A stretch of DNA of 64,000 nucleotides from Fragilaria crotonensis (Eukaryota; Bacillariophyta; Fragilariophyceae; Fragilariales; Fragilariaceae): contig JAKSYS010000098.1 of the NCBI GenBank assembly GCA_022925895.1, positions 59,281-123,280 on the forward strand. The letters run 5' to 3'. Below, in pieces: positions 5,858 to 64,000 of this stretch (within the stretch, counting starts at the first letter, position 1; each line of letters opens with the position of its first letter). The notes beneath the pieces were generated by a model. That model was given only the letters and a program-made list of their open reading frames with translations, ran no database searches and had not been told where the DNA came from. The position numbers were made by a program, and so were the translations under genes.

Positions 5858-5887
5858 GACAATTGTCAACAATGCCTGATGGTGCAA

Positions 5888-12270: not shown

Positions 12271-12274
12271 ATGC

Positions 12275-19186: not shown

Positions 19187-19719
19187 ATGCTGCCCATGCA
19201 ATCATGAGAGTTACGAGTTTTATGAGGGAGGATTGCTTCCATTTTTTTCATACACTCTTCGGAACTGGGAATAAGGACAGGTACTATACTGGAGTACCAA
19301 TACCAGGACTCGACGGGGGTACCGATACAGTAGGGGCGCGTCGGATCGCGGATTTCGCTCACTACTGGTACTAGTACCAGGTACCATGGTTCATACCGTT
19401 CCTCTACTCCATGGAGTAGAGGCAATTCTGTTGTCGCGACGTCAGGAACTTTCTAAAAGCTGCATGAAGCACATCTGAATGCACGATGATGCTATAGCAC
19501 CTGACCCTAGACGACCAATGATTCAGCTGTATACTCATACAACAAAACTCAAATTTTCAGTCCTCAGACTAGCAAGATTGGCGATTGTTGTGCTGTGATC
19601 GGTGTCTGCCTGCTTCAAGGTACCTTGATCACCCATGAAGGTGCAATACCTCCTGCCGAGCATCCGCTTGTTGACTTGTTGATTCCTGATGCACCAGTTA
19701 CGGTGCAAAACCACCGCTC
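19187..19719. other. Intergenic, GTAC-word-rich
   Basis: No gene. The stretch 19278-19420 is crowded with ggtac, gtacc and tactagtacc words, a composition that recurs in intergenic DNA across the window. Confidence 0.5.
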
Positions 19720-36800: not shown

Positions 36801-37001
36801 CTTAGAGGGAAGCATTCCCATGTGACGAATCATCTCCCAACGCGAGACTGCCTTCACTTGGACCGAAAGCACTTCGCAAATGGTATTGACGACTTTGACT
36901 TTGTCAGAAACAAATATCTGCAGCCCGTTTTGCTCGCCAAAGATGAAGAACCAGAGGATGCAATCGCCGAGAGCAGTCAAACTCGACAGCCCTGGTGCTA
37001 A
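33897..37001 (+). CDS. OSCA/CSC1-like (RSN1/TMEM63 family) ion channel, copy 1
   Basis: Intact frame, 1034 aa from the ATG at 33897, chosen because the N-terminus then matches the paralogue at 40706 in length; the next Met is at 33942. Three N-terminal membrane segments (FGLMLFAFCVV; VSCVGIVNSFWLLPMYA; FVGTVVAAYIVFLYTMNLL) precede the cytosolic PHM7-type region, which opens RNYTIYVTGIPREYRSSELL and closes FVVFTKLSTTHAALQ. The seven-span pore domain follows (APEPHDIFWDNVG…, YFVQIVLVTTFLGQGLELLR, RYQFISNYPPTPDSGG). Members are mechanosensitive or osmosensitive Ca2+-permeable channels or lipid scramblases. The cytosolic loop is unusually long (about 400 aa), Ser/Asp/Glu-rich, with a duplicated SSGKIVKVL word near 35444-35503 and an amphipathic Lys-rich helix. 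Copy 2 lacks most of this loop. Confidence 0.85.
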   Translation: MVPEFVHDLLFSRRSMETSEFTPGTDAQVIQDTFRVYGSAFGLMLFAFCVVRKLKPRLFNVRRWAPKIQCELAQHNYGFLSWIWRVYGPTDEEILNQCGMDAVCFLRVIRFGLKVSCVGIVNSFWLLPMYATAALSNETANVQDPVEEMTTSHLPSMSPRFVGTVVAAYIVFLYTMNLLLQEFAWYTKHRHAFLSKRTPRNYTIYVTGIPREYRSSELLLEYFRSCFPPRSVLEAHVAIDLPNLSKLISNREAVIANLEHALAVKQIHGYSPTHLTLQGKVGSISTYRKELRLLNASISSAIRRIQEKAEERHRQLQLGQEACISRLEGYTVESLESEEMDLLSQRPHPQSVDGDSTQFRPVNDVSPNDMPENLIFDPYATLRTKRRNFRDRLSIFAMPEDLANRESDPYSDEEMGAEEQFPSMTPTSIQINQEVHTDSQIETSVDDDQSIHRPELFSSHFDNETSPQGEERNSPTDGKFAIETYNQTPSISHSELQDSLDAALSCRSERYIQFLGSSGKIVKVLVSSGKIVKVLTGSSTDTIAREVGNAIKEVNVDNLKSVTDKGMRTLKKSGVKGIKRVTSVGTVALSEVVHTAKDLIIGNEDGNPRDAGFVVFTKLSTTHAALQMIHHSKPYTMNVKEAPEPHDIFWDNVGKSEKSRQVGQLISFALSAILCFFWTIPVSVISGFSEIDSLKASVPFLATLVEMYPWVANALSQIAPLLLIGLNSLLPSILREFAKAEGHIASSAVEASVFIKLSVFMIIQTFFVSAISGGVYAQLTEILKDPAAIVDLLGNSLPTRGTYFVQIVLVTTFLGQGLELLRVFPLVIAFLRSKIGPNLTTKERNKIYRKYLRPLSDPSEFEHAQVFAIVVLYFMVIFVYAVISPIINYFMALCFLLMGTGYRYQFISNYPPTPDSGGKLWYGFVTICLSCMVIAQITLVGLLALKKATYALPCMAPLMAITVYFTYYLRGKHSHVTNHLPTRDCLHLDRKHFANGIDDFDFVRNKYLQPVLLAKDEEPEDAIAESSQTRQPWC

Positions 37002-37945: not shown

Positions 37946-37951
37946 TGGGAA

Positions 37952-38334
37952 TGTCAAGATGTACTGTGCTACAAGTGCTGCTCAAGATGTGTCGAGTAAT
38001 ACTGTGTCATCCGGACACTACTCGAACAACGACAGTACACCAGTATCTAGTATCTGTTCCGGTGATCACGGCAGTGTTGATGGTTGGACTGTAATCCAGG
38101 TCAAGGCTAAAGCAAAGAAGACTAAAGAAGCTCCACACAGAAGGAAGACTGAAGAGTCTATTATTGGTGTGAATGGGATTCACAAGGTGGTGAATGGGAA
38201 TGCAATTGCAGCTGATGGGATTGGAGTCTAGAAATAGAGACTAACAGTAAAGCTCACAATACAGATAAAGGAAATTCAATACGGTTGTAATATCGTACTG
38301 GCTAGTGTTATACTGTATCAAGGATTATTTAACA
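37952..38334 (+). repeat. Left LTR
   Basis: 383 bp, starting tgtcaagatgtactgtgc and ending ggattatttaaca; same as 40242-40624. It includes an open stretch translating to a Lys-rich segment (VKAKAKKTKEAPHRRK), which is LTR sequence and not a gene. Confidence 0.9.
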
Positions 38335-38368
38335 CGTTTATAAACGGTCAGTTTATATCCAAGGCAAG

Positions 38369-39493
38369 ATGGTGGACGAAACGGCTGAATCCGGGACAGG
38401 GTTTGGAACTACGGTCCGCGCATTTGCGTTCGACGGCGACGAAGCTAGATACCGCTCATGGGAGGGTAAGACCCTTGCGCTCGCCAGCTCGAAAGGATTT
38501 TTGCTCGCACTAACCAGAGAGAGTACCGGAACGGCACTAACGGTTGAACAGTTCGAGTATGGAGAGGTCGAAGTCACGCCAGCGACGGCGGCTACTACGG
38601 GCGGCACGGCTGCCGCTACAGTCATGCGTCCGACGACAACGGCAGAGAACCGGAAGTACCTGGCAAAGGCAGCAGCGTGGACATATTTGGTCGCGAGTTG
38701 CACCGACAAGGCCTATGCACTTATTGAACGGTGCGAAGGGGATCCGTACAAGGCATGGTCTATACTACAAGAGAAATACTGTGCAACGGACGCGGAAGAG
38801 AATTACCCCGAGCTGGATCAGGCATTTAGCGATTGCAAGCTTGTTGGGACGAAGAAGGACCCAGAACTCTGGTTCAATGACTTGGACCACTTGAATATGA
38901 GGCTCGCAAGGATCAACTTGAAGTATGAGAAGGACGATCTGCAAATGAAGAGTCACATGATGACAGCTATGTCGAAGGACTATGACAGCGTCATCGTCAA
39001 GTTCCGTGGAGACCTAAGCGAGACGCCTCTTGCGAAATTGCGAAAGGAAGTGGTACTCCAATTCAAGACCCTTGTCAAGGATGGTAGTGGAAGGAGCTCG
39101 GAATCGGTACTCAGCTCCAGCAACACATTTAAGGGAACATGCAGGAATTGCGGCAAGATTGGCCATAAGGCACATGAGTGCAGGTCAGCCAAGGTCGAAT
39201 CTACGGAGGGTCCCACGAAGGAAGCCAGTACTGCCGACGACGTCGATAAGTCAAATGTGACATGCTATAATTGTCAAGGGAAGGGGCATTATGCGAACGA
39301 GTGTGCGAGCGCAAAGAACTTCAAGTCTGACCCTACAGCTGATATGGCAATGTTTGTCGGAGCGTCATGCGTGGATACTATGCCCGTCTACAAGGGCTAT
39401 GACTATTGTGCGGATGTGGAGACAGCTTCTTCGACAACATGTCCGATTCAGTGGCTTTTGGCGAGGTTGATGACACTTTGTTTGGTCATTTGA
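38369..39493 (+). CDS. Copia gag polyprotein with two zinc knuckles
   Basis: ATG at 38369, 35 bp after the left LTR; 374 aa. The region with …AWTYLVASCTDKAYALI, DPYKAWSILQEKY, WFNDLDHLNMRL and MMTAMSKDYDSVI is the typical Copia gag (UBN2-like) core. Two CCHC knuckles follow, CRNCGKIGHKAHEC and CYNCQGKGHYANEC, both with intact C-x2-C-x4-H-x4-C spacing. After residue about 345 the frame appears to change: the overlapping frame continues CGDSFFDNMSDSVAFGEVDD into the protease region. Whether this is a deliberate frameshift or an indel is not clear; Copia elements normally use one frame. Confidence 0.85.
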   Translation: MVDETAESGTGFGTTVRAFAFDGDEARYRSWEGKTLALASSKGFLLALTRESTGTALTVEQFEYGEVEVTPATAATTGGTAAATVMRPTTTAENRKYLAKAAAWTYLVASCTDKAYALIERCEGDPYKAWSILQEKYCATDAEENYPELDQAFSDCKLVGTKKDPELWFNDLDHLNMRLARINLKYEKDDLQMKSHMMTAMSKDYDSVIVKFRGDLSETPLAKLRKEVVLQFKTLVKDGSGRSSESVLSSSNTFKGTCRNCGKIGHKAHECRSAKVESTEGPTKEASTADDVDKSNVTCYNCQGKGHYANECASAKNFKSDPTADMAMFVGASCVDTMPVYKGYDYCADVETASSTTCPIQWLLARLMTLCLVI

Positions 39494-40241
39494 TCCTGGC
39501 CGGTGGTACTTGTACTAAGAACGATACTAAAACTGCACGCATTGAGGACACTGCGGCGGAGACTGAACCAGTTGCCATTGAGGTTGAGTTGGTTGAAGAA
39601 CAGGAATCCAAATGTGACTTGGACGTTCTTGCAACTGACATGAACACCCCTATCATGGCTACCAATGAAACTACGGACAAAAATGATAAAGTCATTGTCA
39701 TGCCAAGCGCTTGTGTCGGATCAGCAGTTACGCTAGGACTTGCGGAGGAATGGCTACTTGATGATGGCGGCGCTACTGGTGGCGTCGCATACGACAACAA
39801 ACATACGACAGATTTGACGGATTCGAATCGTGACGTCACTATCGGAAATGGTGGCGAAGTTCCAGAAACCATGTTGAAGGACCTACCGGATGACAAGTTG
39901 ACATTGGAAATGCCTGGACTTGTTGAGATCGCGGAGGATGTCCCTGCTACTATGGCTGTTACTGGTGTTGCACCGTTGGTCGCAACGATGGAGTCATTTT
40001 CTAAAATTCTGAAGTCACTTGGGCTTATTCGCCAATGCAAGACCGATCCATGCCTTTTCTACCTATTTGACAGGTACGGAAATTTACAGGCAATCGTGGT
40101 TGCGTGCTGCGATGACTGCATTGCTGTTTTTACTGGACACGAGAAATGGTGGGTCACGAAGCTCAAGACTGGAATATCGGGAGGAATGACCATGCCGGAA
40201 GGAATTTCGGACATTTTGTATGATCCCCAGAACACGGAGGA
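39430..40241 (+). pseudogene. Copia protease remnant fused to reverse-transcriptase end
   Basis: The open frame continues through the right LTR to 40521. EEWLLDDGGATGGV resembles the Copia protease active site (WLLDSGAT-H) but the D-S/T-G is changed to DDGG. Then SKILKSLGLIRQCKTDPCLF and AIVVACCDDCIAVF match the SDPCLF…VYVDDCI box of reverse transcriptase. Between them about 2.5 kb of integrase and polymerase expected for the family is missing without breaking the frame. Confidence 0.75.
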
Positions 40242-40624
40242 TGTCAAGATGTACTGTGCTACAAGTGCTGCTCAAGATGTGTCGAGTAATACTGTGTCAT
40301 CCGGACACTACTCGAACAACGACAGTACACCAGTATCTAGTATCTGTTCCGGTGATCACGGCAGTGTTGATGGTTGGACTGTAATCCAGGTCAAGGCTAA
40401 AGCAAAGAAGACTAAAGAAGCTCCACACAGAAGGAAGACTGAAGAGTCTATTATTGGTGTGAATGGGATTCACAAGGTGGTGAATGGGAATGCAATTGCA
40501 GCTGATGGGATTGGAGTCTAGAAATAGAGACTAACAGTAAAGCTCACAATACAGATAAAGGAAATTCAATACGGTTGTAATATCGTACTGGCTAGTGTTA
40601 TACTGTATCAAGGATTATTTAACA
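40242..40624 (+). repeat. Right LTR
   Basis: Copy of the left LTR. It ends 81 bp before the ATG of the second OSCA-like gene, so its 3' end is now part of that gene's upstream region. Confidence 0.9.
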
Positions 40625-40705
40625 TGGGAATACCTATGAATATGCCACATACGACCAAAATCTTCACACACGTAGTAGCCAGAAATCATTTCACAATTCT
40701 ATCGC

Positions 40706-43295
40706 ATGGCGTCGTTGGAATTTGACGAGTTGGGGTACCTCCCTCGTTTCCTTGAAGACAGCAGCAATTCAACAGGGGGAAATACGACGAACGCGTTGGT
40801 GCCTCCTAATGACTCAGTGATAGTGATTTCCACGCTTCGAACGTATGGAAGCATATACCTGGTTTTGATTGTAACCTTCTGTGTCTTGCGCAACCGATTC
40901 CCGCGCAGTTACAATGTCCGCAGTTGGGCTCCTGACATTCAAACAGACTTGGCAAAGATTTTTCGGCTCCGTCAGCTGGTTCTGGAGAGTTTGGTTTGTC
41001 GGTGACGATGATTTTCGGGAGCAATGTGGCATGGACGCACTCAGTTTCGTACGTATCTTGCGTTTCGGACTTCGGCTGGCCTTTGTGGGAGCATTCAACT
41101 CCATATGGCTTATTCCAATTTACGGTACCAGTCCAGTCGTAGAAGCGAACGAGCATATCACAGATCCTCTTGCCATGCTCACAGTCGGCTACATCCCTGC
41201 CGGCTCACCACGATTTATCGCCACAGTGATTGCTGCGTACATTCAGTTCGGAGTGATGATGTACCTACTACTAAAAGAGTTTGAATGGTTCACCGAAAAT
41301 CGTCACAAATACCTCATGGCCTTAGAACCAAGGAACTACACCGTCTACGTCAGTCACATTCCCTGAATACCGTACTAGCGCTAAGCTGGTGGACTACTTT
41401 CGATCATGCTTCTCGCCGCACGCCGTTCTTGAAGCGCACATCGCGCTGAAGATTCCACGCTTGAAAAGCAATTCAAAATTCGAGAAAAGTTGGTGAACAA
41501 ACTCGAACATGCTATTAATGTGAAGCAAGTGACCGGTAAGAATCCAACTCACCGAAGCATTCTGGCGGGCCGCACCACAAAGGTGGACTCGATAGAGACC
41601 TACTCGGACGAATTGAAGCAGATTAACGAGGAAATTGAGCGTCAGGTTCTCGGAATTGAAGAGAGAAACAATCCGATGTCTTTTCGGGCGGATATTGAAG
41701 CCGAGGGAGGGTCCTTGTTGTACACTGGCAGCCTCAGGGGTGGAGAATCCATTTCTTCTCTCGGAATGGACAGGCAAAGAATAGATCCGAAGCTTTCTGG
41801 GCTTTACGACGATATTCCAGAAATCGATGAGAGCAAGCCACTGAGCCGCAGCAGCATGGCTTTATCAGACCACCTCCGCACAACTGTCAGATCTGCGACT
41901 GGAAAATTGAAATCAGCAGATGGGGACGCCGCTGCTTCAGGGTTGTCACTCATCATGGGTCACCAAGACGGCGAACCTCGCGAGGCTGGATTCGTGACTT
42001 TCACCAGTATCAAGACTACTCAAGCTGCGTTGCAGCAAATTCATCACGAGGTGCCATTCTGTATGGAGGTTGCGGAAGCCCCACAACCAGAGGACATATT
42101 CTGGGGAAACGTCGGTAAATCGCACGGGACTCTGCAGCTTGGGAAGCTTCTCAGTGTTAGCTTGACCGCTCTTTTATGCCTCGTGTGGACTGTTCCTATC
42201 GCCTTTATTGCATCAATGACCGAAGTGCAGTCGCTGAAGGGCACACTGCCGTTTTTGGCCGCTTGGAGCGACGCCTGGCCACCTTTGGACTTGGTGCTTG
42301 CGCAACTTGCACCCCTCATTTTGATTTTGGTTAAGATGTTGCTACCGTTCCTTTTGGGTGTATTCAGTAAAATGGAGGGTCCAGTGTCTTCCTCAGTTTT
42401 GGAAGCATCCCTGTTTTTCAAGCTTGCAATGTTCGCCATCATTCAAACTTTCTTTGTGTCGACCTTTTCTGGTTCGATTACTTCTGAGCTCACGAACATT
42501 CTTGAGAATCCAACCTCTGTCGTTGATTTACTGGCGAACAGTATTCCAGGGCAAAGTTCATATTTCATGCAGATTTTGTTTGTTCAGACTTTTCTCGGCC
42601 AAGGTCTTGAGCTTCTCCGAGTGACACCGATCGCCAAAGCGGCCATCAGGTCTCTAGTGGGACCAAACTTGACGGAAAAAGAGCGCAACACCTCTTGGCT
42701 TGGACTCAGCCCGCTTGCTGACCCAGGAGACTTTGGATTCGCCGACACCCTTTCCAACGGAATCCTTTACTTCATGGTTGTCTTCGTGTACGGCACTCTC
42801 GCCCCTGTCACCAATTGGTTTTTGGCGTTCTGTTTCATCCTTATGATCAGTGGGTATCGGAATCAGCTTATATTCATCTACCCTCCAACTCCGGATAGTG
42901 GCGGTCAACTCTGGATCCAATTCTTTAGAATATCCCAGACGATGGTCTTGATTGCAGAGATCACAATCATCGGTTTCCTGGCTCTCAAGAAGGCTGCAAT
43001 CGCTGTTCCACTCATGATTCCGTTGATCATCACCACCATTTTGTTCAACTTTTATATTAGTCAGAGACATTTCCTCGTGTCCCAACGTTTACCTTCTCGC
43101 GCTGCTCTCAAGAAGGATTTGCAAAATCAGGAGGAGGGTCAACTGGACATGTCCTTCGTCCGCGGCGAATACCTTCAGGAAGCATTGAAGTCGAAGGAGG
43201 CAATCTACCCAGAGAACTCCCGTATGTTCTTACAAATGGAATTGCAACAATCTGAGTTCATGACACCGCCTGGATCTGAGAATGAGTTTTACTAA
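40706..43295 (+). CDS. OSCA/CSC1-like channel, copy 2 (three frameshifts)
   Basis: Paralogue of the gene at 33897. The first frame (MASLEFDELGY…NVRSWAPDIQTDLA) breaks near 40955, continuing SWFWRVWFVGDDDFREQCGMD. It breaks near 41363 in ccc (…YVSHIP|EYRTSAKLV) and near 41480, then stays open from 41490 to 43295 (601 aa). The pore domain is complete, with APQPEDIFWGNVGKS, SYFMQILFVQTFLGQGLELLR and RNQLIFIYPPTPDSGG. The cytosolic loop is only about 200 residues, roughly half that of copy 1, retaining LEHAINVKQ-TGKNPTH and EAGFVTFTSIKTTQAALQ. The breaks are single-base changes without splice signals. They may be assembly errors, or copy 2 may be decaying after the Copia insertion next to its promoter. 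Confidence 0.75.
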
Positions 43296-49834: not shown

Positions 49835-50158
49835 AGAACAAAGCTTGCGCAGATGATGAACCAGCGACCAATCCGATTTTACCCATGAAACGAGTTGGCC
49901 AAGTCCATGTCGGAAAATAGCTTTATTGACGCTGTAACTGCCTTTCCTGACATCGAACTTGAGAGGTCGATGCATCGCTTGCGAGGATCCTATGGAGTTT
50001 TAATGATACCTGTAGGTTTTCTGCACTAATTGGTGCAAGTAAGATCATTCTATTTCGTCAATACAACTGTCTGTATAGTCAACTACTTGCACATTTACAA
50101 GTTGTTGACAGCCCAAATTCAAAGGCAATGGTCAAAATCACTCCACCAAAGCTAAAGA
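49835..50158. other. Convergent intergenic region
   Basis: 324 bp between the 3' ends of the HA-domain gene and the rubredoxin gene. No gene seen. Confidence 0.5.
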
Positions 50159-50683
50159 TCAAGATTGGAGCATCACCTCCATCAAGTGTCGTTCCGACAC
50201 GGTCACCAACCTTTTCGCATAACGACGGCGGGGACCAGAGCATTGCGGGCATCGGAAGCCGGGACCTTGTTCTTCAAAAAACATTCCAGCACATTCAGCC
50301 TGAGTGGTATAATATATGTATATGTGCGAGAATGGCAATGGTGAATGGTCGTCCAATGTTGCAACGAAAAAACGTTTTGAGAAAATTATTCAACAGTGAA
50401 TGCATCAAGAAGTATAGGCACAACGAGCCTTGGGACTCACACGATTGTAAATGTAACCGCAATCCTTGCAGACCCATTCGCCTTCCCAGTATTTTGATGC
50501 CGCTGCCTTTTCAGAAGCGGTCTGCTCTTTCGTCTTGCGGTTGCCGAACACCATGTTCAGGCTGGTGGTGGTTGACGGTGCAACTGCATTTTTGCGGGTC
50601 ACTGCAGCTAATGGCTGCACAGTGAAAGCTTGAGTGCAAGCAACAAGAAGAAGGAGGAGGAGAGTAGCAACAAAGGATTTCAT
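50159..50683 (-). CDS. Plastid-targeted rubredoxin-type protein
   Basis: Two exons, 50441-50683 and 50159-50299, with a 141-bp GT-AG intron (gtgagt…actcag) between codons; product 127 aa, no frameshift. The leader MKSFVATLLLLLLVACTQAF|TVQP is a signal peptide with plastid-type cleavage context. A Thr/Ser/Lys-rich transit part runs to about residue 45. The core has the two rubredoxin-type knuckles CKDCGYIYNR and, after the splice, CPQCSGPRRRY, giving four Cys for one Fe. The loop between them (AECAGMFFEEQGPGF) is shorter than in typical rubredoxins, which carry PPGT-F--LP-DW-CP. A role in plastid electron transfer or photosystem assembly would fit plastid rubredoxins in plants and cyanobacteria. 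No C-terminal membrane anchor is seen. Confidence 0.75.
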
Positions 50684-51388
50684 GTCGATTTATTAAGGAG
50701 AGTAGTTGATCAAAAGATTGTGACGCAGAGCAATAATAACTGCAAAGACCACATCGCATCATGGCGGATAACGAATCCACGGTGTCAGAGTTGGTGATGA
50801 TGTCAGTGATCCGTTGTCAGTTGATTTTCGCGTCGGTTGTCGGTTCCCGAGTCATCGGGTCGGAAAGGGTCACGCAGGCACGCATGCCTCATTTTTTGAA
50901 GGAAAAAATTGAGGGGTAGTTGTACCATATCGACGTATCCAATTTGAGCAATACTATGCATATCGTCTGCAGTAGTGGTAGGCTATTTAAGTACTAATCG
51001 GAGCACTCCAGCATGTCTAGTAGTAGAGGCGATTCACAATGAGAGCACAAGCCAAATAAAGTTGTTCCAGTAGCATTAGCAGCCTAATGTTGATCGTGTT
51101 CCAAATGTGATTTATTTTGTCAAGCACGTGAACTACTTTTGCTGATGAGCAGGGCTTCGATCGTCGTAACCCGATGGATGAGGATTTCCCTCGATGATGG
51201 TGGCTAATTGAATGCTCAAGTGTCGAATAGACAAACAAAGAGCCACCATGAAGAGAGCCGGGATTGGCCATCTGCGCAACACTATAGCACTAACAATGGA
51301 ACCGGCCAATCCGCAAAACTTTGCGCGTTGAATAACTTTCAGGGCATTGCGACAGCAAGCACATTGCTTGGAATGATGTTTCCAAGGG
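50684..51388. other. Intergenic, nothing recognised
   Basis: 705 bp between the start of the rubredoxin gene and the end of the oxygenase gene, both on minus. No gene supported. Confidence 0.4.
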
Positions 51389-52699
51389 TCAATCTGCTGG
51401 ACCCGATCCAAAGTTTGAGCGACTCGAAGGCGGCAGGTCAAAGGTATTCACAGGAGCGGTGCTAAAGCCGTGGCGTGACCACCATTGACGAAACGCCTTG
51501 ACCCCAACGTCAGACTGAGTCGGAAAAAGGTAGGGTGAGTATTTGGAAGATCGCTTTCTAGCTTGGTACTCCGCGTTGTGCAGCCACACGTCAGTATTCA
51601 GGAATCGATTGGATGCGGCGTGTTTGAGCCAAAGGGGAAGCCAATTGACCATGGCCGAACCGAACAACACTCGAGACCTCCCGGCTTCGATGGGTACGAC
51701 GTGCACGTTAAGGTCGATTTTGTATTCATTGGTGTTGTTTTTTAATGTTCGATAATGATACATGGTGGGCCGTTGAAAGGAGGCTATACCACTGTTCATT
51801 GGAAAAGGAAATCTGCGGTCAGTGACACGGCTGTAGATTCTGCTTGAATACCCACACACTTACACTCGTTTGACGCCTCGTGAATAATCTTCAAAGGATG
51901 TCTCGACGTGCGTAAAGTTCGAAACAAGAATGCTCATGGGGACGGGTGATGCATCCGATCGCAAGCTTTGCAACGCGTGGTGGGCAAACGGAATGTGGGA
52001 GGGGTCCATGAAATTTTCGATCACAAAGTCTGCGGAGTATGGTAGTTCCCGTGCAAAGTAGGTCTTGTTCGTTCGCATATCATGTCGAACGGTAGGGTTA
52101 TGTCTTCCGGCAAGACGGATTGCAAGAACATTTCACCATGCACTGAGGAAGGCAGAAACGCAAAAATCATGTCCCCGCCAGGTGAGTTGGGAAGTAGGAT
52201 GCCCGCGATCCAGCAATTCGATCAATCCTTGTGTCAGGCTCTGCGTGTGGTAAACGAGTAAGGTTCCCTTCCGTGTCAAATTGCCAGCCATGGTAGGGAC
52301 ATTCAATGCATCCAGTTTCTGGATCGACGCGACCTTGGCTGAGGGGTGCCAATCGATGTGGACAAGTGTCAGCCATGACCGACCATTTGCTCTCGGCTTT
52401 CTCATCGGAATTCCAGACGACCAAGTCCAAACCCATCACCCGAATTTGCTGTGGTCCTAGTCCACGAAGAGCGTGCGCTGATGCAATTGGAATCAAGCAC
52501 CTACGTTGTCGTCGTCGTCATTCCAAACTGGGTCGCGATCGACCGTCCGTGAATCCAACGTGGAAAAGCGTATTGATAGGGGCCGTCGTATCGTCGAAGG
52601 CACCAGGTGGGGTGATGTTAAGGCGGATACGTGAAAGGCTTCCGCAAAGGAGACTACCGTTGTCACCAGAAGAATGCTCACCATCTTGATGGGGATCAT
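51389..52699 (-). CDS. Plastid Rieske oxygenase, PaO/TIC55-like (three frameshifts, one 51-bp intron)
   Basis: ATG at 52699; the upstream frame starts without ATG. Leader MIPIKMVSILLVTTVVSFAEAF|HVSA gives plastid targeting. The Rieske centre is complete: CPHRLAPLSQGRV…CIECPYHGWQFD (C-x-H, C-x2-H). The mononuclear iron site DFVIENFMDPSHIPFAHH follows the family pattern NxxDxxHxxxxH. Frames change by one base near 52500, at a gggg run near 52173-52176, and near 52090. A 51-bp GT-AG intron (51813-51863, gtaagt…cgcag) contains an in-frame TAA and joins …GVKRV to FPFPMNSG. The C-terminal CxxC of PaO and TIC55 is not seen in the last part. Family members oxidise chlorophyll intermediates or related tetrapyrroles using ferredoxin; the exact substrate cannot be told. 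Confidence 0.75.
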
Positions 52700-53349
52700 T
52701 CGTTTATTCGCCTTCGCTTCTTTACAAGTGTATGCGATTGGCTCCCTCGTAGAATCTTTGTGGTCGGAACCACGAAGATTTGATGTCAACAGGTCACAGA
52801 CTCGGCATCATCGAGTCGCCTACGTAGAAAGTCTACAGTACTGTAAATACTGAGAATACCAGTCATATTTATCGTTTATAATTTATACAGTACTACCAGG
52901 TACGTTTTTGCATAGTGTCATCCCAGGTACAAGCTACTATAGTACACCGTTCCGAATGCATAGCACAATAGCGCAATAGCGTGCAAATACAGTGTACAGT
53001 GTATTCGTGCTATATGACTTTATGGCATGCATTCCGCCTTCCGCAACTCCTGGTGACAGGCGGCGACACTGTAGATTTTGTACCGTACTCCATTACCGAT
53101 TAGCGTAACAAGGAATTCATCCTTGTATAAACGGTATATATCATTTTTACTTTGATCTAAGTAGCTCAGAAGGCCGTTGGTCGCCGTCGAGGCATCGACA
53201 TGCGAAACTGAACCGAGATTCAAGAGTACTGAGTACTGAGCTAACGACGCCCCTCAGGGAGGCGTTGCTACCGTTACCTCGATTATTTTGTGTTCCATCA
53301 ATTTTGCTGCCTTCTCAATAGAATCACAACAAAAGTCCGACTTCAGACC
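52700..53349. promoter_or_regulatory. Divergent intergenic region, GTAC-rich
   Basis: 650 bp between head-to-head genes. 52820-52940 holds cagtactg, gtactacc and ggtacg words. No specific element assigned. Confidence 0.4.
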
Positions 53350-54759
53350 ATGTTGAGCAGCTTTTTTAGCTTTGCCAAGGAGCCTGAGACTCGGCACGTG
53401 GTGCCATCTCCTTCCAAACCCAACAAATCAATAAGGCATCGTCCAAAGAGGAAAGGCAAACGAGGTGGGCCTGCGTCGACAGACAGCGCGAACATCAACG
53501 CAACCCCTCTTTCCTTCGCGTTTTCAGATGAAAGCATTTCAGTATGCGAAACAAAACATGGCGTCGAAGTTGCATTGGACTGGAATGCCGCTACCGTTAG
53601 TCCTTCCAAAGATGATGTTCTGAATGTCAGCCACTACCTGAGACAAGCTAGGAAGATACAAAAGTGTCAGTTCTCGATGAATTATCCAATACTGCCAATT
53701 GCAGCAATGGGTGAACAACAGAAACAACCCCAGCAGCAATCCCGGCACAGAATTCCACTTTCAGAATCTGTGAACGTATCATCGCTAGAAGACGACGTTT
53801 TCTGTTGCAGTCACATGTCGTCCGTGACGAACTAACGTCCATCGAAGAAGAAATGAGGTCTCGATGCAGAAATACAAGCACTTGAAGACGACCGGATGGA
53901 GCTGGAGCACAACTATTTACAGCTCCCAAGCACTAGTGCTGACTTGCCGTCGTGGGATTTTGAGTTTCTCTTGAAAAAGCAGAAGCCGTCATTGGAGAAC
54001 GTCCAAGAACTTCAACGCCTGCGCGGCCGGTGCTGGACTGTACAGCTGCAATCGATGAAAACTCGAGATACTATTTGTAACAAACTCTGTTCCTCGGACC
54101 AAAATTCTCATAAACGCACAAACAAGTACAAGTCTCGGACGACAGTCACTGCTACGACCCAGGTTTCATACCTTTGCCTCCTCCCTGGAACCGGAAACAA
54201 CAGTACTTTTTCATGCACACTGATTCGTCCGAATCTCGGTTATGTGCCGCCGCGATTGTTCGCACGCATGAAGAAAAACGCTCTCAATATGGATATGTTG
54301 ACATATCTGTCGACTGGACCGAACGGTAGCTACTTCTGTTCCTTTCTTCTGGTCACGTTTTCTGGGGCATTTCAGACCCCGAATTTGATGCAATCGTGAA
54401 GGAGTGGCCTGTTTACAGAGTGGCGTTCGGCGAAACAAAAGCTCCCTCAGCAGAAGCGTCTCTTCAGTTGGATAATCGTGAGTCGGGATGGTCGAGTCGC
54501 TTTCAAGAACCTGCCCCTCCGACTGACGAATTTGTTGAATTCACGTTTGGCTGACGAATCGGCACCGGCTGAAATTGCCTTGGGTAGCGAAGGTGCCTAT
54601 TTTATCCGCTTTCTAAATGGAAGCATTGACTATTGTTTGCCGTCCCACATTACGGAAGTCTGCAACTTCATTGTGCAACGGGGAGGCAAAATCACCAACA
54701 TTTTGCTTCACCCGCAGCTCTCGAAGGAGTTTATCGTACGACACACCGAAATGAAATAG
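53350..54759 (+). CDS. Uncharacterised coiled-coil protein with repeated G-x-Y-F-x-G-S modules (frameshifts)
   Basis: Not recognised. ATG at 53350. A basic N-terminus (RHRPKRKGKRGG) precedes a Ser-rich part. Read across one-base shifts near 53775 and 53860 there is a coiled-coil candidate, RDELTSIEEEM then LDAEIQALEDDRMELEHNYLQL. The C-terminal third shows a recurring short module: STGPNGSYF near 54310, FWGISDPEFDAIVKEWP near 54365, and ALGSEGAYFIRFLNGSIDYC near 54580, followed by LHPQLSKEFIVRHTEMK and stop. The GxxGxYFxxFxxGS pattern with an acidic or aromatic follow-up looks like a small repeated beta-type domain; I cannot name it. At least four frame changes separate the pieces, so boundaries are approximate. 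The protein would be about 470 aa. Confidence 0.5.
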
Positions 54760-55173
54760 ACTGTCAGTAGAAAGACTTGTTAGTATGATAAATAGGTGTG
54801 TTACCGCTTCTCAGCTGATAATGGGGCGAGATAACTGTCAAAAGCTTTTTACAACCGATTGCCAACATGATTTCGCCCCCTTACTCAATCGTCATCTCAA
54901 CGATTCGTTATCGTTCGCCCTACTCCAGTACTCTCGTTGGCGTCGACGGGTTCCCGAAAGATAGGTGCGGAGAAGTTTACTAGTTCGGATTAGCTTGACT
55001 GCCAAAACAAGAATCAAAATGAGAACGTTCGGCTCTCACGATTGATCTCAAAGAATGTGGACCTTTTCGATCAGCACCCTTCTCGTCGCATCTATACGTG
55101 CTTAATGGCATCCGCGTTCTTCATTATTTTCACTTGGCCTTCGTCTCCTTTCTCCATCGCATTGATATACAAG
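54760..55173. other. Convergent intergenic region holding the last minisatellite unit
   Basis: The 55141 copy of the 72-bp repeat lies just past the RNase HII stop. Otherwise no gene. Confidence 0.5.
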
Positions 55174-55430
55174 CTAGCTCTTCCTCGCCCTCTTTGTTCT
55201 TTTCGACTGGCCTTCGTCTCCTTCTTCCTTCCCATTGGTACCGCCTGATCCCGTTCTCGGTTTCTTCGTTCCATTCAACAGACTATCGTCTCCTTCCTCC
55301 TTTTCGTTATCACCAACCAACGTAATCTTTGCCTTCTTCGTTCCTTTCATTTCGTTTTCGGCTCCTTCCTCGTTCTCGTTGCCGCCAGCATACTCATATT
55401 TCAGTGGCGCAAATGTCATGCGATGAATAG
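55130..55430. repeat. 72-bp minisatellite in the 3' end of the RNase HII gene
   Basis: The words tcgtctcctt (55141, 55214, 55286) and tcggctcctt (55358) mark four units spaced 73, 72 and 72 bp. On minus each 72-bp unit encodes 24 residues with a KEEGD…NGTKK-like pattern. The 73-bp interval carries one extra base and ends the frame, leaving the fourth unit outside the present stop. Confidence 0.7.
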
Positions 55431-56239
55431 GCAACGGCCCATGCCGAGCTATTAGCTCCATGTGTTTTGCCGTACCGTAGCCTTTGTGCTGGTCAAGCAG
55501 GTAATGAGGATACTTCTCATGGTATTGATGCATCAAAGCATCGCGTGAAACCTTGGCGATAATCGAAGCGGCGCCAATCAAGTACTCTCGACCGTCGCCC
55601 TTTATCATTACTTCGGCCTCAGAGGAAACGCTGGAGGCATGCGATTGCCATCAATCAGGAGAAGACCTGAGCTGGATCGAGAGGCGCGTTTCCTGAAATC
55701 ACCTCACAGTTCTCATCCGTCGCTCCTGTCACAACATAATTTCCCTCATGAGATGTGGATAAGCTCGACTCATATCGCACAGTATCCAATCCCAAAACGC
55801 CGCTTGCAGCCATGCGCATGGCTTCGTACGTCGCTTGCAAAATGTTGATTTCATCAATAGTCTTTGCATCTACAACAGCCACCGCATACCGTAGATTTGC
55901 GCTTGATACGAGCCTTTGATACAATTCATCACGGACTGGTTCCTTTGTTAATTGTTTGGAATCACAAATACCGTCCACGGTGGGACAAGTTGACAAAATG
56001 GCAGCAGCCACGACAGGACCTGCCAATGGACCTCGGCCAGCTTCGTCGACACCCATGATGAAGGAAATACCTGGGCTTGTCTGCAATAGCTCCATTTCTC
56101 GGGATCGGGGCAGCGTTTCATGTGACGACTTTGGTTTGGTTGTCTTTGGTTCTGGTTTTGCAGGAGCATCTTTGTCGTCGACTACTTTTGTCCTTGTGGA
56201 TCGTTTTTGGTGGCAATTGGTTTGGTGGCGCCGGCGCAT
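55174..56239 (-). CDS. rnhB: Ribonuclease HII (frameshifts; repeated acidic/basic tail)
   Basis: ATG at 56239, after which a Lys/Pro-rich leader precedes GISFIMGVDEAGRGPLAGPVV, the RNase HII signature with the catalytic Asp-Glu pair. DSKQLTKEPVRDELY and DEINILQATYEAMRMA follow. Two one-base shifts between 55620 and 55670 cover LIDGNRMPPAFP, carrying the third catalytic Asp (family: (I/V)DGN--P). Then YLIGAASIIAKVSRDALM holds the fourth (Asp after KVSR), and HKGYGTAKHMELIARHGPLPIHR closes the core. The form resembles bacterial RNase HII rather than the eukaryotic RNase H2A. It removes ribonucleotides from DNA, possibly in an organelle. The tail of about 75 residues is three imperfect 24-residue repeats. 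The true N-terminus could lie in the frame upstream (to about 56300). Confidence 0.8.
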
Positions 56240-56977
56240 CGTCTAGCGGTCCAGTACTACAAAGTCGTTGAAGTCGAGCACTGCGACGATTCTTCGTCAT
56301 TGTCTGATGTGATGAGGGATGCAAAGATTGAACTGGTCCTGTTCGCAGACATGAAAAGCAGATAACCAGAGTGGTTCTTCGACGACCGAACACTGATCGA
56401 AGCGGGAGAGAAAGGTTGGTCAGCAACGAGATGGAGTTTCGACAGAAAGGGTCGAAGGCCATACTCTAAGCTTGCTTTAGTTGTTAAGAAGCAATTGCAA
56501 AGAGTCCGTACGCTGCCATTGTCGGAGTCTGTCTGGGCTCAGAAGTTATGTAGAAAGATAAGAGCAACAGATCCAGCAGCTGCAAATTAGCTGTCGAATA
56601 ATAAAGCTGATACTGAATCATTTCGATGCAAAACAACCTTAAATAAAACGAGGATGCTCATTTTTCAATTTCGAGCATATAACGTTTCTGATAGGTACAT
56701 AAGGGAATGAGTTTATTCGTTTCTATGGTACTGTAGTATACCGTCGTACATTTCGTAGTCAGTTACATTGGAGAACATAACTTTGACAAGTTGTATAGCA
56801 GTAACTTCCGAATGCTCCAAAGCTAAAAAATGAAATAATCCCATATACCTTCCACAGTTTTTGTTGAGACCAGTTGAATTTGGCTCTGCCACTCATACAA
56901 GGAAAAGACAGTAATGAAGTGCCAGTCGCCATGGGTTCCACCTAGAGCGCTGTCTATCTTTCTGCAGTCGAAGAAGC
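56240..56977. promoter_or_regulatory. Divergent intergenic region
   Basis: 738 bp between RNase HII and the secreted-protein gene. An alternative 5' end of RNase HII may extend to about 56300. A ggtactgtagtatacc palindrome-like word is at 56726. No gene seen. Confidence 0.4.
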
Positions 56978-57487
56978 ATGACGCCTCGGCCGGTCTCAGC
57001 AAGGATTGTTTTGCTCTTAATAGTATTGCATCAGACCGTTTCCACTCCTACAATTGAATGGAAAGAATCTGTAAGGAACGATCCTCACGTTCATGTCCGA
57101 GAGTCTGGATCAGAAGTCACAAACGATGCTAGCTACCGTACAAGCACCGTGAACGAAACTGTCTTGCATCCACACGTACAAGAATATGGAGTAGCGGGCT
57201 TGGCCGCCAGCGTACCTGTTGGCGACATCGACGATACTGATATACCTGTGGAAAATCTGCATACGGAGGTTGAGTTTTCGCCCCCCGGGGTTATTTTGGA
57301 TGAGGCGGATCTGGATTTGAGTGTGCTTGAAAAGAAACATGCGAACCGACATCATCGGCATAAAGCGTCGAAAACGAAGGATTTTCACAAGGAGATGCAA
57401 GGGGCTGGCAGCATCTTTAGCAAACCCAACGAAGGAACTGAGGTGGACGCCAAACGGAACAAGGGAAGTGTGCGGGGTCATCGGTAA
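56978..57487 (+). CDS. Small secreted acidic protein, His/Lys-rich C-terminus
   Basis: Intact, 169 aa, ATG at 56978. Residues 1-22 are a signal peptide (RIVLLLIVLHQTVSTPT). The middle is acidic (VGDIDDTDIPVENLHTEVEF, LDEADLDLSVLEKK) without membrane spans. The C-terminal 45 residues are basic and His-rich (KKHANRHHRHKASKTKDFHK). I do not recognise a domain. Codon content and a clean signal peptide support a real gene, but the C-terminus could continue beyond 57487 if an indel is present. Confidence 0.45.
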   Translation: MTPRPVSARIVLLLIVLHQTVSTPTIEWKESVRNDPHVHVRESGSEVTNDASYRTSTVNETVLHPHVQEYGVAGLAASVPVGDIDDTDIPVENLHTEVEFSPPGVILDEADLDLSVLEKKHANRHHRHKASKTKDFHKEMQGAGSIFSKPNEGTEVDAKRNKGSVRGHR

Positions 57488-58426
57488 CGATGTCAGCATC
57501 TGAGGCTCCAACGGATATTTCTAATTCACCATCTCCCCCTCCGACGACGACTGTGCCGTGACACCATGATTAGTAATTTCAGAAATTGTTGAGGGTCCAG
57601 TCCCAGATTCGACAACAGTTGTGCTCACGCGATTCCTTGTAGAGGACAAGTTATGCGTCTCTCCACTATCGGTTCGGATCCTTAAAGCCATTCATGACAG
57701 TGAGATTACTGCTTCTTCCGAAAAACGCATGCTCTCTTGAACTACATATGCGTTGCCTCGGCAACCAACCTGTGGCTCCTGTATCCAGGAGCAGACTATC
57801 AGCGTGGAATCATGCATCAGTTCACCTCAAGATAGCTTAATAAATCAAAACTCAATATACAGTCATTGTAGGGCGTAGGTCGCGAGAAAGACTGTTCCTG
57901 CAGTGCGGGTCGCAACCTGAAGGTGCGTTCATGATGTGTGATTCATTCTGTGCCATATCATTTTTATCCTAAATGGGTACGCAACACCGTGGTACTTGTA
58001 CTGTAGTACCCAATTTCGAACCTCTCAAAGGAATGTAGAATCTCATTTCAACGCACCAAGTGCCTTTTGCAGTTCGTTGTGGTTTGCGGTTCGCATTCCC
58101 TCCCAGTCTTCCAAGGAAGTTCCAAAAATGTGCCAGATGCCAGTAACCAGGCGCAACACGGACCCCCCGTATCTTTTCCCGCTGCGCTGCATTTGCAGGT
58201 GTACTTCTCGTTGTACCTCCGTTACGAAGTGAGAATTCCATTGTGCCAGTGGGGGTTGGGAAATTCTTCAATTGCTGACGTTGAAATCACCCTTCTGCTG
58301 CGCACTTTCAGGATCCTGAGGGACGGACCACTGATCATCTTTCGTTCCTTTCACAGAACTCACGCCTTTGGTTAGTCATCCTGTCATACTCCAAACACAC
58401 AGGTTGCACGAACAACACTGTGAACC
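57488..58426. other. Intergenic, upstream of GOGAT
   Basis: 939 bp. No recognisable gene; a few open frames around 58000-58375 carry no domain. It should contain the GOGAT promoter. Confidence 0.4.
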
Positions 58427-61400
58427 ATGATCTCTTCTGCGGCTCGTCGTGCTGCCCGGGGTGTTCTATCCGTAATGCGAGAACTCTGCGGCGTGTTCCT
58501 CGCTCCAGCATGGCATCGATCCGTCTGCTTGTTATGACCAACGCTGGTGGATCTGCTTCCTACACTACTGAACGTGTTGTTGAACTTCGTTCGGGCAAGA
58601 AGATGCCAACTCTCTACGATGCCACACGCGAAACAGAAAACTGTGGTGTTGGTTTGGTCGCTTCATTGAAGTCGATCGCATCTCGCCGGGTTGTGGAAGA
58701 TGCCGACGAAATGTTGGTTCGCATGTCCCATCGTGGTGGATGTGGCTGCGATCCAGCATCGGGAGATGGTGCAGGTAAGAGTACTCTTGTGTCTCCAGTC
58801 GCAGTATTGCCTTAGTTTCTGCTTCCTGATTGGTTGACAACTTGTCACTACATCTTCATGTTCTAACCACTGTGATGCTTGCAGGAGTTCTTTTTGGTAT
58901 GCCTGACTCATTCATGCGCGCCAAGGCCTTGGAATTGTTCAAATTCGAACTCCCCAAGGTTGGAGACTACGCAGTGTCCAATGTCTTCTTCCCACACGCA
59001 AATCTGAAGGCACTCGAAGATTGCAAGAGCATCCTCGAGCGTCTCTGTCACGAGAGGGGATTAAAGGTTGTTGGGTGGCGACCGGTGCCAGTCGATAATT
59101 CCATGTTGGGCAAGGATCCGCTTGATTCGGAACCGATCACGGAGCAGCTGTTTGTTGCCCATCAAGGACAGTACCATAATCGTACCTTCGAGCAAGAATT
59201 AATGCGTATCCGTAAAATGGCCGAAGATGAAGCAACTGCCATGTTGGGCCCTGAAAGCGGATTCTACATAAACTCTCTCACCAGTCACACCATCACATAT
59301 AAGGGTCAGTTGACGCCTGAGCAAGTCTCTCAATACTACCTTGACTTGAAGGATCCTACCTTTGTCTCTCACATGGGGCTTGTGCACTCACGTTTCAGTA
59401 CCAACACGTTCCCTTCCTGGGAACGTGCTCAGCCCATTCGCATGATGTGCCACAATGGTGAAATCAATACACTCCGCGGAAACAAGAATTGGATGTACTC
59501 TCGTGGCGGCATCATGGAATCTGAAATTTACGGTGATGATACTATGCACCTGCTGCCTGCCACCTCTGACAACATGAGTGACTCTGGAAACTTTGACTCC
59601 GTCTTGGAGCTCCTTACAAGGCTTCGAATAGATCATTGCCGGAGGCTGTCATGATGATGATTCCTGAAGCGTGGCAAGATAATGACAATCTTTCCGATAC
59701 AAAGAAGGCTTCTACAGTACAATTCTTGCGTCATGGAACCATGGGACGGACCAGCAATGGTAGCCTTTACAGATGGCCGCTACATTGGAGCTACCCTGGA
59801 CAGAAATGGACTTCGACCATCACGTTACTACGTCACCAAGGATGATCATGTGATGTTGTCGTCCGAGATTGGTGTCTGTCCAGAGTTGTCCGATGCCGAT
59901 GTTAAAATTAAGCACCGTCTGGAGCCTGGCAAAATGTTTTTGGTTGACTTCGAAACTCAACGCATCGTTCCTGATAACGAAATCAAGGAGCAGGTTGCTC
60001 ACATGCATCCGTACGGTGAATGGGTGAAGGACGGCATGGTTGACTTGGAGAAATGGGCGAAGGAGCGAGGCACGACCCGCAGTAAGATGGATTTCAGCCA
60101 GACGAACCGCAAACTGAACATGTTCGGTTATACATCGGAGAAATTGGAAATGCTTCTTATGCCCATGGCTGTGGGCGGGAAGGAGGCGCTTGGGTCGATG
60201 GGTAACGATGCTGCATTAGCGGTCCTGTCCGAGAAACCTCGTGCAGTTTTTGATTACTTCAAGCAGCTCTTTGCTCAAGTGACCAACCCACCAATCGACC
60301 CAATTCGTGAAGAAATTGTCATGTCTCTGGTGTGCCCTGTTGGCCCTGAGGGAAATCTCTTGTCGGAGCCTAGCCCTCAACACTGCCAACGTCTTGTGGT
60401 GCGCCACCCTGTCTTGACGTTGGAGGAGATGCGCACTCTTAAACACGCCGAACACTGGAAGGGTGGTTTCAACTTCAAGACGAGCATCATCGATACGACC
60501 TATCCAGTCGGAAGCGGGCCAGATGGTATGCTTCAAGCCTTGGAACGCATTTGCCATGAAGCCGCAGAAATTATTCAGGGACACTTCGGAGAAGAAGGTG
60601 CGCAGGCAGTCTGCCTCTCCGATCGTTTGGCAGGTCCGGACCGCATGCCACTTCCATCGCTCTTGGCGGTCGGTGCTGTCCACCAACACCTACTGAAGAC
60701 CAAGCAACGCCCTAAGGCTGCCATCTTCGCTGAGGTTGGTGATGCCAAGGAAGTCCATGACTACGCCACGCTTTTCGGTTATGGATGTGATGGCGTCTGT
60801 CCGTATGTGGCCTACGAAGCCATTTGCAAAATGAACAGCGACGGATTGGTCGAAGCAACAACCAAACGTGAGTTCACTGATGATGAGCTTATGGCGAACT
60901 ATCGTAAGGCCGCTGCCAAAGGTCTTTTGAAGGTTATGAGCAAAATGGGTATCTCCACTCTGCAGAGTTACAAGGGAGCGCAGGTGTTCGAAGCAGTGGG
61001 TCTCGCAGATGAAATCGTTGATCGTTGCTTTACCGGAACTACTACTCGAATTCAGGGCACTGGCTTCGAAGCGTTATACCGTGATATGGAGCGTTTCCAC
61101 CAGACCGCTTATTCCTCTTCTGGACTTGTCCAGAGCGATGGACAATTCCACTACAGAGACGGTGGCGAGGCACATCTCAATACACCTGCAGGGATGGTCA
61201 ATCTGCAAATTGCTGGTCGTACGAACTCTCGCGAAGCCTACAAGGAATTTGCACGATTGACTAATGAGCAGAACAAAAAGGTGACCCTTCGTGGTCAGCT
61301 GAAGTTCAAGTTAGATCCTGCCCGCTCGGTTCCTCTCGATGAAGTGGAGCCTGCTAGTGCCATTGTCAAGCGTTTCGCTTCTGGCGCCATGTCTTTGGGA

Positions 61401-63254
61401 TCCATCAGCCGGGAGGCCCATGAAACGTTGGCAGTTGCAATGAACTCGATCGGTGCCCGTTCGAATACTGGAGAAGGGGCGAAGATCCCGCGCGCTCTTA
61501 GACAATCGTCGCTCTGCTATCAAGCAGGTTGCGTCCGGCCGATTCGGGTTACATCCCACTACCTTGCTAACAGCGACCAAATTCAAATCAAATGGCCCAA
61601 GGTGCCAAGCCTGGCGAAGGTGGTGAGCTTCCTGGTTTCAAGGTTTCGGAGTACATTGCCTCGAACCGCCATACGACTCCGGGCGTGGGTCTCATTTCTC
61701 CTCCTCCTCACCACGATATCTACTCCATTGAAGATCTAGCTCAACTCATTCACGATCTTAAAAACGCCCAACCACACGGTGAGGTTTCTGTTAAGCTGGT
61801 CTCTGAAGTTGGTGTCGGTGTCGTTGCTGCTGGTGTCGCTAAAGCCCTTTCTGATCACATCACCATTAGCGGACACGATGGGGGTACCGGAGCTGCTGCT
61901 TGGACTGGAGTCAAGGGTGCGGGCCTCCCGTGGGAATTGGGTCTTGCTGAGACACAGCAAACATTGGTCTTAAACGGTCTTCGCGACCGTATTAAGCTTC
62001 AAACGGACGGCCAGCTGAAGACCGGACGCGACGTGGTCATCGCATGCTTGTTGGGGGCAGAGGAATTCGGTTTCGCTACCGCTCCCTGATTGCCATGGGA
62101 TGCATTATGATGCGCAAATGCCATCTGAACACTTGCCCTGTCGGTATCGCAACACAAGATGAGGAACTCAGACGCAAATTTTCCGGACAACCTGAGCATG
62201 TTGTCAACTACCTGATGCTCCTGGCCGAAGATGTTCGTGAGATTATGGCCAAGCTCGGTTATCGCAAGATGGAAGATATGATTGGGCAGACGCAGCACCT
62301 CGAGGTCAACACTCGTGGTTTGCACTACAAGAGTCGAGGTCTTGACCTGAGTCCACTCCTTACTCCAGCCTCGGAGCTAAATCCTTCGGCTGGCATCCGC
62401 AATTTGACAGGCCAATACCATGGCTTGGATGTCGCAAAGGACAACGCCTTCATCGAAAAGGCGAAGGCTGCGATCGAAAACGGTGAAAAAGTGATTATCG
62501 AGGACGAGTGCACCAATCTTAACAGAACTATGGGAACCATGCTTTCATACACAATCTCCAAGAAGTATGGTAAGGAAGGTCTTCCCGATGACACCATTCA
62601 AATCAAGCTCAGAGGTCATGGTGGTCAATCCATGGGTTTTACTTTGGCGCGTGGTATTACTATGACAGTGGAGGGTGATGCTAACGACTACACTGGAAAG
62701 GGTCTGTCGGGAGGAAAGATTGCCGTGTATCCCCGCCCTGAGATTGTCACCGATGGCTTCGTGGCTGAAGAACACGTGGTAGTTGGAAACGTCTGCTTGT
62801 ACGGAGCAACGGCTGGAAAAGCCTTCTTTCGCGGTAAGGCTGGCGAACGCTTTTGCGTTCGTAACCCAGTGCACTGGCGGTCGTTGAAGGACTTGGTGAT
62901 CACGGCTGCGAGTATATGACCGGGGTGTCGTTGTGTGTTTGGCAGAAACTGGTCGCAATTTCGCTGCCGGTATGAGTGGCGGACTTGCCTACATTTACGA
63001 TCCTGACGGCAAGTTCCCAGCGCTGCAACATGGGATTGGTTGGCTTGGAATTTGTCGATACTGAAGAGGAGAAGCAGGAATTGTACGACTACATCAAGGA
63101 ACACGTTGCCCACACTGGTTCTGCTGTGGGGCAAGAGATGCTGGATAACTGGGACATTCGTGTCAGCCAGTTTGTCAAGGTCTTTCCTCACGATTTCAAG
63201 CGTGTCCTGCTGGAGCGTAAGGCTGCTGAGGAGGGTTCTGCTGAAGCTGCGTAA
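58427..63254 (+). CDS. Glutamate synthase (GOGAT) large/ferredoxin-type subunit, many single-base breaks
   Basis: ATG at 58427 opens an Ala/Arg presequence ([15 protein letters not shown]) of mitochondrial type. Exon 1 ends at 58774; a 110-bp intron (58775-58884, gtaaga…ttgcag) splits …[11 protein letters not shown]. The glutaminase domain begins at [10 protein letters not shown], whose Cys is the Ntn nucleophile after propeptide removal. Later blocks are [20 protein letters not shown], the FMN synthase domain ([33 protein letters not shown]), the 3Fe-4S motif [15 protein letters not shown] and the beta-helix C-terminal domain ([17 protein letters not shown]). It ends [15 protein letters not shown]…, so no NAD(P)H small subunit is fused; total about 1570 aa. 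Function: glutamine + 2-oxoglutarate to two glutamate. The mitochondrial-like leader favours the NAD(P)H type with a separate small subunit; Fd-GOGAT is not excluded. About ten one-base deletions interrupt it. Confidence 0.88.
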
Positions 63255-63410
63255 AGGAACTCAAAAGTGACTGGAGCACGACTTAGTGAGATTTGTACAC
63301 ACGACGAAGCGTTTATTTTGTGATGGTTGAGGTTCATCTCCCGGCCCTAGAGCGGTGACAACCCAATATTATTAGGTTTATTATGATTTTATCATCCATA
63401 CCTGCCCACT

Positions 63411-63971
63411 TCACACAGTTGCAGTCACCTTGACCTTCTTACCTGGACTTGTACCCCGTTTCTTCCTGTTCTCATCGTCCCCATGAATATCGTCGTCGTC
63501 AACGTATTCCACCACTTCATCCGACACCTCTGCTCCTTGCCCTGCAGCCGCTGATAAGATTGCACGCTGCTTCCAGTGCTCCTTCTCTTCTTCGAAACTT
63601 GCGCCCATTGGCGAGCTACCATCGATATCATTTCTCTCGCCGGGACGTCCGGATTGCTGTCTTTGATGCACTCGTAATTCGCCGTGACGTACATCGTATA
63701 GGCTGTATGCTGTCGTTTGGGGCGATTGGGGTCACGCCCCTGCTTGCGCTTGGAAGCCTTTCGAGTCCCATCTGCTGTGGCATTGCCAATTTAGTGAGGT
63801 CAGACTGATCTCGCATTTCGAGGAACCAACGAGCAAGGTCACAACGCGCTTCGTACTCTTACCTTCGGCTGAGGCATGGCTTTCGATGTTGGCAGCAACG
63901 GTTCGCAAGGCGTTGGCGCGTTCTTCCGCCTGCGTCGCCTCGCAACGAAGAAATGCAATGAAGGCGGGCAC
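63411..63971 (-). CDS. HMG-box protein, 5' end unresolved near window end
   Basis: Read on minus, an exon up to about 63971 (PAFIAFLRCEATQAEERANALRTVAANIESHASAE) is joined by a 91-bp GT-AG intron (63772-63862, gtaaga…agcag) to DGTRKASKRKQGRDPNRPKRQ, then HTAYTMYVTANYECIKDSNP and EMISMVARQWAQVSK…EHWKQRA, a standard HMG-box (basic entry, P--AY--Y, P---E-----R-W--V--EEK--W). One base is missing near 63600 between VSK and EEKEHW. The tail is acidic then basic (VEYVDDDDIHGDDENRKKRG…GKKVKV). HMG-box proteins bend DNA in chromatin. An in-frame stop lies just before PAFIAF, so another exon or the true start probably lies beyond 63971 or in another frame. Confidence 0.65.
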
Positions 63972-64000
63972 TCATGAGATGAACAACTCCCTTAGCATTA

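Follow-up and report, generated by a model that had tools for sequence, protein, structure and literature searches.

Frame breaks in a glutamate synthase gene of the diatom Fragilaria crotonensis point to consensus error at a locus assembled three times

The window analysed in this study is a stretch of 64,000 nucleotides from the genome assembly of Fragilaria crotonensis (GCA_022925895.1; 62.1 Mb in 881 contigs) and forms the last 64 kb of contig JAKSYS010000098.1, here called C3. On its forward strand, at 58427–63254, it carries a gene for the large subunit of NAD(P)H glutamate synthase (NAD(P)H-GOGAT; GltB), the reading frame of which is broken repeatedly. Comparison of the assembled copies indicates that these frame breaks are almost certainly present in the deposited sequence and not in the organism, that is, assembly error. 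One locus was assembled three times, and every copy has a distinct set of indels, most of them one base long and many located in homopolymers. A preceding interpretation made from the letters of the window (the sequence-only reading) had proposed consensus error rather than pseudogene decay, and this proposal was strongly supported, as the copies break mostly at different places, the indels ignore coding status, and the same type of error could be observed in a probable plastid repeat.

The conserved protein described in the sequence-only reading could be followed across 58427–63254 by open reading frame (ORF) reading and by matches to NF008730, a glutamate synthase large subunit model, and to PDB 7mfm_G. 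Exon 1 (58427–58774) holds the start region and the first part of the protein and is followed by a spliceosomal intron of 110 bp (58775–58884; GT...AG, phase 1) and by exon 2 (58885–63254). The splice ends of the intron, which the sequence-only reading had not named, are identical in all three assembled copies, and the intron is, judged by its sequence, genuine and not an error. Five successive pieces of exon 2 matched NF008730 within positions 59–1475 of 1490, some of them separated by short gaps; owing to the broken reading frame, no single piece reached the whole-protein cut-off of 1047 bits. PDB 7mfm_G matched one exon-2 piece with an E value of 3.9e-147, and the glutamate synthase FMN-binding domain PF01645 was matched from profile position 9 to 368 of 369 in three successive pieces (C3:120477–121542, contig coordinates). 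Between the breaks the protein is well conserved: the 80 bacterial relatives listed share 41–49% identity with it, in nearly all cases over approximately 630 residues.

Frame breaks were counted with our own frameshift-tolerant program, which was given exon 2, but not exon 1, and a profile of 40 bacterial GOGATs. Ten frameshifts were revealed in exon 2 of the window copy (59616, 59711, 61479, 61499, 61549, 61593, 62084, 62866, 62922, and 63017) with no in-frame stop, which agrees with the "about ten" of the sequence-only reading. Eight of the ten are clustered in 61479–63017, while 59712–61478 is free of breaks. One more break lies near 58469 in exon 1, where the two other copies agree against C3 in a three-way alignment. 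These copies of the GOGAT segment were found on contigs C207 and C331 at 98–99% identity. Frameshifts in exon 2 number 10 in C3, 8 in C207, and 18 in C331, which also has one stop. The alignments begin at profile positions 73, 98, and 91, respectively, so that any breaks close to the beginning of exon 2 go uncounted in C207 and C331. No break was common to all three copies in the shared aligned part of exon 2. At nine of the ten C3 breaks the frame is intact in C207, and at the tenth (62084) it is intact in C331.

The last 19,153 bases of C3 (44848–64000) align end to end with the first 19,140 bases of C207, the first base of which corresponds to window position 44848. BLAST comparison of the two gave 19,218 aligned positions with 26 mismatches and 110 gap openings, gaps outnumbering mismatches by approximately 4:1; the counts depend on the program, MAFFT giving 46 and 103. 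This has the signature of an unmerged contig overlap of one locus, because the match extends to the very ends of both contigs. The stretch 51085–64000 occurs a third time in C331, which ends at window position 51085 and holds the locus on the opposite strand (12,968 BLAST positions, 40 mismatches, and 111 gap openings against C3). In the three-way alignment of 12,981 columns, private substitutions away from gaps numbered 34 in C331, 8 in C3, and 6 in C207. Within the C3 overlap (12.8 kb of bins) 69 substitutions and 85 gap openings separate C207 from C331, and beyond it (4.8 kb of bins) there are 15 substitutions and 8 gap openings, a ratio as expected of alleles. By these sequence differences C331 is consistent with a second haplotype at this locus. 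An end overlap of 19.15 kb together with a contig that behaves as a second haplotype resembles the unmerged overlaps and haplotigs of diploid long-read assemblies, with the difference that the published draft to which this assembly probably corresponds had redundant contigs removed by Redundans and yet C3, C207, and C331 remain.

The three-way alignment contained 125 gap events, 46 in the GOGAT coding sequence (9.75/kb) and 79 in the rest (9.64/kb), which includes other genes. Gap lengths were not multiples of three in 41 of the 46 coding events and 74 of the 79 others. The indels were blind to coding status, with no selection on them. Among 79 single-base gap events, 37 fell in runs of at least four bases, which make up 4.5% of the bases (P ~1e-28, approximately tenfold above chance), and 46 in runs of at least three (14.6% of bases; P ~5e-19). 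Between C3 and C207 the GOGAT coding sequence showed no substitution more than four columns from a gap, a rule under which 42 of 90 substitution columns in the three-way alignment were set aside, including five C3/C207 substitutions in GOGAT at 59712–59715 and 62868.

Other sequences present twice in the assembly served as controls. Contig C881 carries two oppositely oriented copies of Cpn60 (groEL-like) and HSP70 (dnaK-like) genes, and is probably a plastid contig with the duplicated stretch as its inverted repeat. The two copies of a 3.9-kb part of this repeat showed no substitutions and seven internal one-base indels, all in runs of 5–7 bases (two more gaps at the alignment edges were excluded). 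In one copy dnaK forms a single open frame of 631 codons, and in the other it is divided into four overlapping pieces, two of which contain stops. As the copies of a plastid repeat are kept identical in the cell, such differences would have arisen during sequencing or assembly. Plastid gene annotations from this assembly may be suspect too. Other near-identical pairs could also be compared: C430 and C238 showed 3 mismatches and 27 gap openings over 3,813 bp, and C734 and C758 showed 17 and 35 over 4,451 bp. In a further pair, C257 and C485 (99.2% identical over 3,633 bp), the Cpn60/TCP1 gene is open across the profile in C257 and lies in three pieces in C485. C238 and C485, which hold different Cpn60/TCP1 loci, both shift frame at profile position 92/93, where C257, the partner of C485, does not; this may be either a coincidence or a sequence context that is repeatedly miscalled.

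The sequence-only reading had described the changes as deletions confined to homopolymers and had named seven shortened runs, and this description proved too narrow. Four of the ten exon-2 breaks lie clearly in runs of at least three bases, and a fifth, 59711, does so in part: it is two bases short, and by eye one of the missing bases belongs to a run of three T, while under the gap placement of MAFFT neither base is scored as a homopolymer event. Two lie in runs of two, as judged against the other copies, and three outside runs; gap placement, and hence run length, varies with the alignment program at a few sites. Among the named runs, those at 61546, 61590, 62083, and 62922 held, since at least one other copy has the longer run. 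The other three did not: the run near 59619 is one of two bases, the differing base at 61498 is situated two bases upstream within a run of two, and at 61476–61479 the other two copies carry a different base inside the run, which is not a shortened homopolymer. Nor are the changes only deletions, as among the 103 gap openings that separate C3 from C207 the bases are missing in C3 in 47 cases and in C207 in 56.

The alternative that survives best, while still being very improbable, is a true pseudogene, in which GOGAT has been inactivated in the organism or in one haplotype and is decaying by small indels. It would account for a frame that is interrupted repeatedly in all assembled copies, and an unbroken copy of this GOGAT locus was not found in the assembly. 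Against it, the breaks differ between the copies, and disabling changes common to C3, C207, and C331 were not found in the common part of exon 2. Substitutions would be expected to accumulate in a decaying gene at least as fast as indels, whereas C3 and C207 differ by 26 mismatches and 110 gap openings and their coding sequence has many indels with no substitutions away from gaps, the opposite of decay. Moreover, the surrounding DNA has the same indel density, the same error type occurs in the probable plastid inverted repeat, and the protein between the breaks is well conserved among the 80 bacterial relatives listed.

Three real paralogues of a recently triplicated segment, each broken independently, are extremely unlikely. 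Such a triplication would account for the presence of the segment on three contigs at 98–99% identity, and the 34 private substitutions of C331 are consistent with at least two haplotypes; yet the last base of C3 coincides with base 19,140 of C207 in a match that reaches both contig ends, gaps between these two outnumber mismatches by about 4:1, and C331 is compatible with a second haplotype at one locus. It is equally hard to credit that the living diatom carries these frame breaks, differing between haplotypes, and that they are tolerated or corrected by the cell. Real breaks bypassed by programmed frameshifting, transcript slippage, or RNA editing would reconcile a protein that looks constrained with a broken DNA frame, but no break is common to all copies in the aligned part, the gaps between C3 and C207 run both ways, and the surrounding DNA has the same gap density, so that this account is the least credible of all.

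Several observations weigh against assembly error as the explanation. Four of the ten C3 breaks are common to one other copy (61593, 62866, and 62922 with C331, and 62084 with C207), and C331 has a break 3 bp from the C3 break at 59711. The breaks common to two copies could reflect recurrent systematic error, yet real allelic indels at these sites fit also. Three window breaks, 61479, 62866, and 63017, lie outside homopolymers, and in C257/C485, unlike the other pairs, mismatches (11) outnumber gap openings (6).

The sequence-only reading had held that a second, intact GOGAT locus, together with accurate reads that reproduce the indels, would refute assembly error. When such a locus was looked for, the other locus found was a divergent one, assembled on C734 and C758; C758 shows 10 breaks and C734 apparently 2, of which one could be an intron. 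Its DNA aligned to the window gene only over 621 bases at 66% and over 173 bases at 73% identity. From its N-terminus it is presumably a plastid Fd-type GOGAT. An intact second GOGAT as a functional replacement was rejected, this locus being divergent, twice assembled, and itself carrying breaks.

The large-subunit gene stops at 63254, and the small subunit is separate and not fused to it. The small-subunit profile TIGR01317 was matched on contig C571 (C571:132043–133592) in two pieces of 436.1 and 273.3 bits, both below the cut-off of 447.7 bits. The layout is like the split GltB/GltD of diatom NAD(P)H-GOGAT, with a large-subunit gene alone in the window and a small-subunit match on C571, and besides the errors the window gene shows nothing unusual compared with it. 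Diatoms have been reported to possess a plastid Fd-GOGAT and a mitochondrial NAD(P)H-GOGAT (PMC4588885).

The draft genome of F. crotonensis SAG 28.96 has been described as 61.85 Mb of nuclear sequence in 879 contigs with 47.40% G+C content and 81% completeness, obtained from Nanopore R9.4.1 reads with Canu, followed by Pilon polishing with Illumina reads and then by Redundans (PMC9476933). We infer that the assembly studied here is this draft. The sequence-only reading had assumed an unpolished long-read consensus; the long-read error part of that view stands, while a Pilon-polished draft, if it is the same one, points to patchy residual error instead. The errors probably derive from Nanopore basecalling combined with incomplete short-read polishing. 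Residual Nanopore errors have been reported as mainly frame-shifting indels in homopolymers, and an excess of pseudogenes has been noted in R9.4 assemblies after polishing by Racon and Medaka (PMC8011154). Long-read errors have further been described as mostly short indels at homopolymers, with deletions after runs of two to eight and some deletions that hit non-repeated bases (PMC12007338). The differences observed here resemble residual Nanopore R9.4 consensus error in being mostly indels, enriched in homopolymers, and independent of coding status; they differ in being patchy and in including both missing and extra bases, in a draft that was short-read polished.

The patchiness could be quantified, as the differences between C3 and C207 had a variance-to-mean ratio of 2.32 per 500 bp, a value reached by none of 5000 uniform simulations. 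Near-identical contig ends, through ambiguous short-read mapping or thin coverage, may have caused this clustering, and dense errors may in turn block read mapping and leave uncorrected islands, a view for which we consider the chances evenly balanced. A contig-end effect was considered; the indels are dense near the start of C207 and the end of C3, but also at window 50000–55000. The ambiguous-mapping account is weakened by C331, which is the worst copy despite its own distinguishing substitutions, and by the Cpn60/TCP1 loci on C12, C862, and C218, which look frame-split without a near-identical partner among the fetched hits.

Errors limited to the multiply assembled part, as a polishing failure on near-identical copies, were expected first, and this idea is kept only as a possible cause of the clustering. 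In its favour, the gap openings between C207 and C331 number 85 in the 12.8 kb within the C3 overlap and drop to 8 in the 4.8 kb past the end of C3, and an OSCA-like frame of 1070 codons (33789–37001) and a kinase frame (27278–28390), for which no second copy was found, are uninterrupted. Against it, a second OSCA-like gene (~40740–43200), for which a DNA search found only itself, shows three breaks within approximately 500 bp (40952–41458), and a photolyase gene (25040–26786), also with no second copy found, has an apparent break at a run of six G near 25620. The absence of a second copy is a soft result, as one genome search scored 38 of 84 candidates and omitted the C207 match seen by BLAST; the search that covered the uninterrupted genes scored 31 of 32 and that with the second OSCA-like gene 1 of 1. 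These genes outside the overlap were chosen for recognisable relatives and are not a random sample. The proposal of the sequence-only reading that its finding should change how every frameshift in the window is read can therefore be kept in a weaker form: any frameshift there is suspect, but not certainly an error, since the errors cluster and some long frames are uninterrupted.

Several further features were recorded. In the multiply assembled part, a ribonuclease HII gene (55174–56239, complementary strand) is divided between two ORFs, and an intervening portion of the domain is missing. Two long repeated elements at 1–6299 and 12263–19187, with at least five and at least nine more near-full-length copies elsewhere at 97–99% identity, are probably recent transposable elements. 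A shorter repeat at 37951–40625 has at least ten near-full-length relatives (89–100% identity to 38001–40625), contains a zinc-knuckle ORF (38369–39493), and has a 50-bp end repeated at 37951–38000 and 40241–40290; it looks like a small long terminal repeat (LTR) retroelement. An uninterrupted ORF of 774 codons on the complementary strand (7395–9719) encodes a transposase domain of the IS4/PiggyBac type (PF13843). In the genome as a whole, the silicon transporter family PF03842 gave 19 matches, 18 of them above the cut-off, which marks the genome as that of a diatom. Multi-domain silicon transporters are known from araphid diatoms; here, one open frame of 1456 codons at C97:29749–33762 holds three tandem silicon-transporter domains, and a two-domain frame is present on C771.

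With the breaks attributed to consensus error, nothing biologically new remains in this gene, which is an ordinary one. It would presumably be intact in the cell and is predicted from its sequence to catalyse the usual GOGAT reaction together with a small subunit encoded elsewhere. A false pseudogene is thereby removed from the account of this diatom. Because C3, C207, and C331 overlap, the assembly counts some loci repeatedly, and claims of gene loss, pseudogenes, or frameshifts drawn from this draft need to be checked against another assembled copy where one is present.

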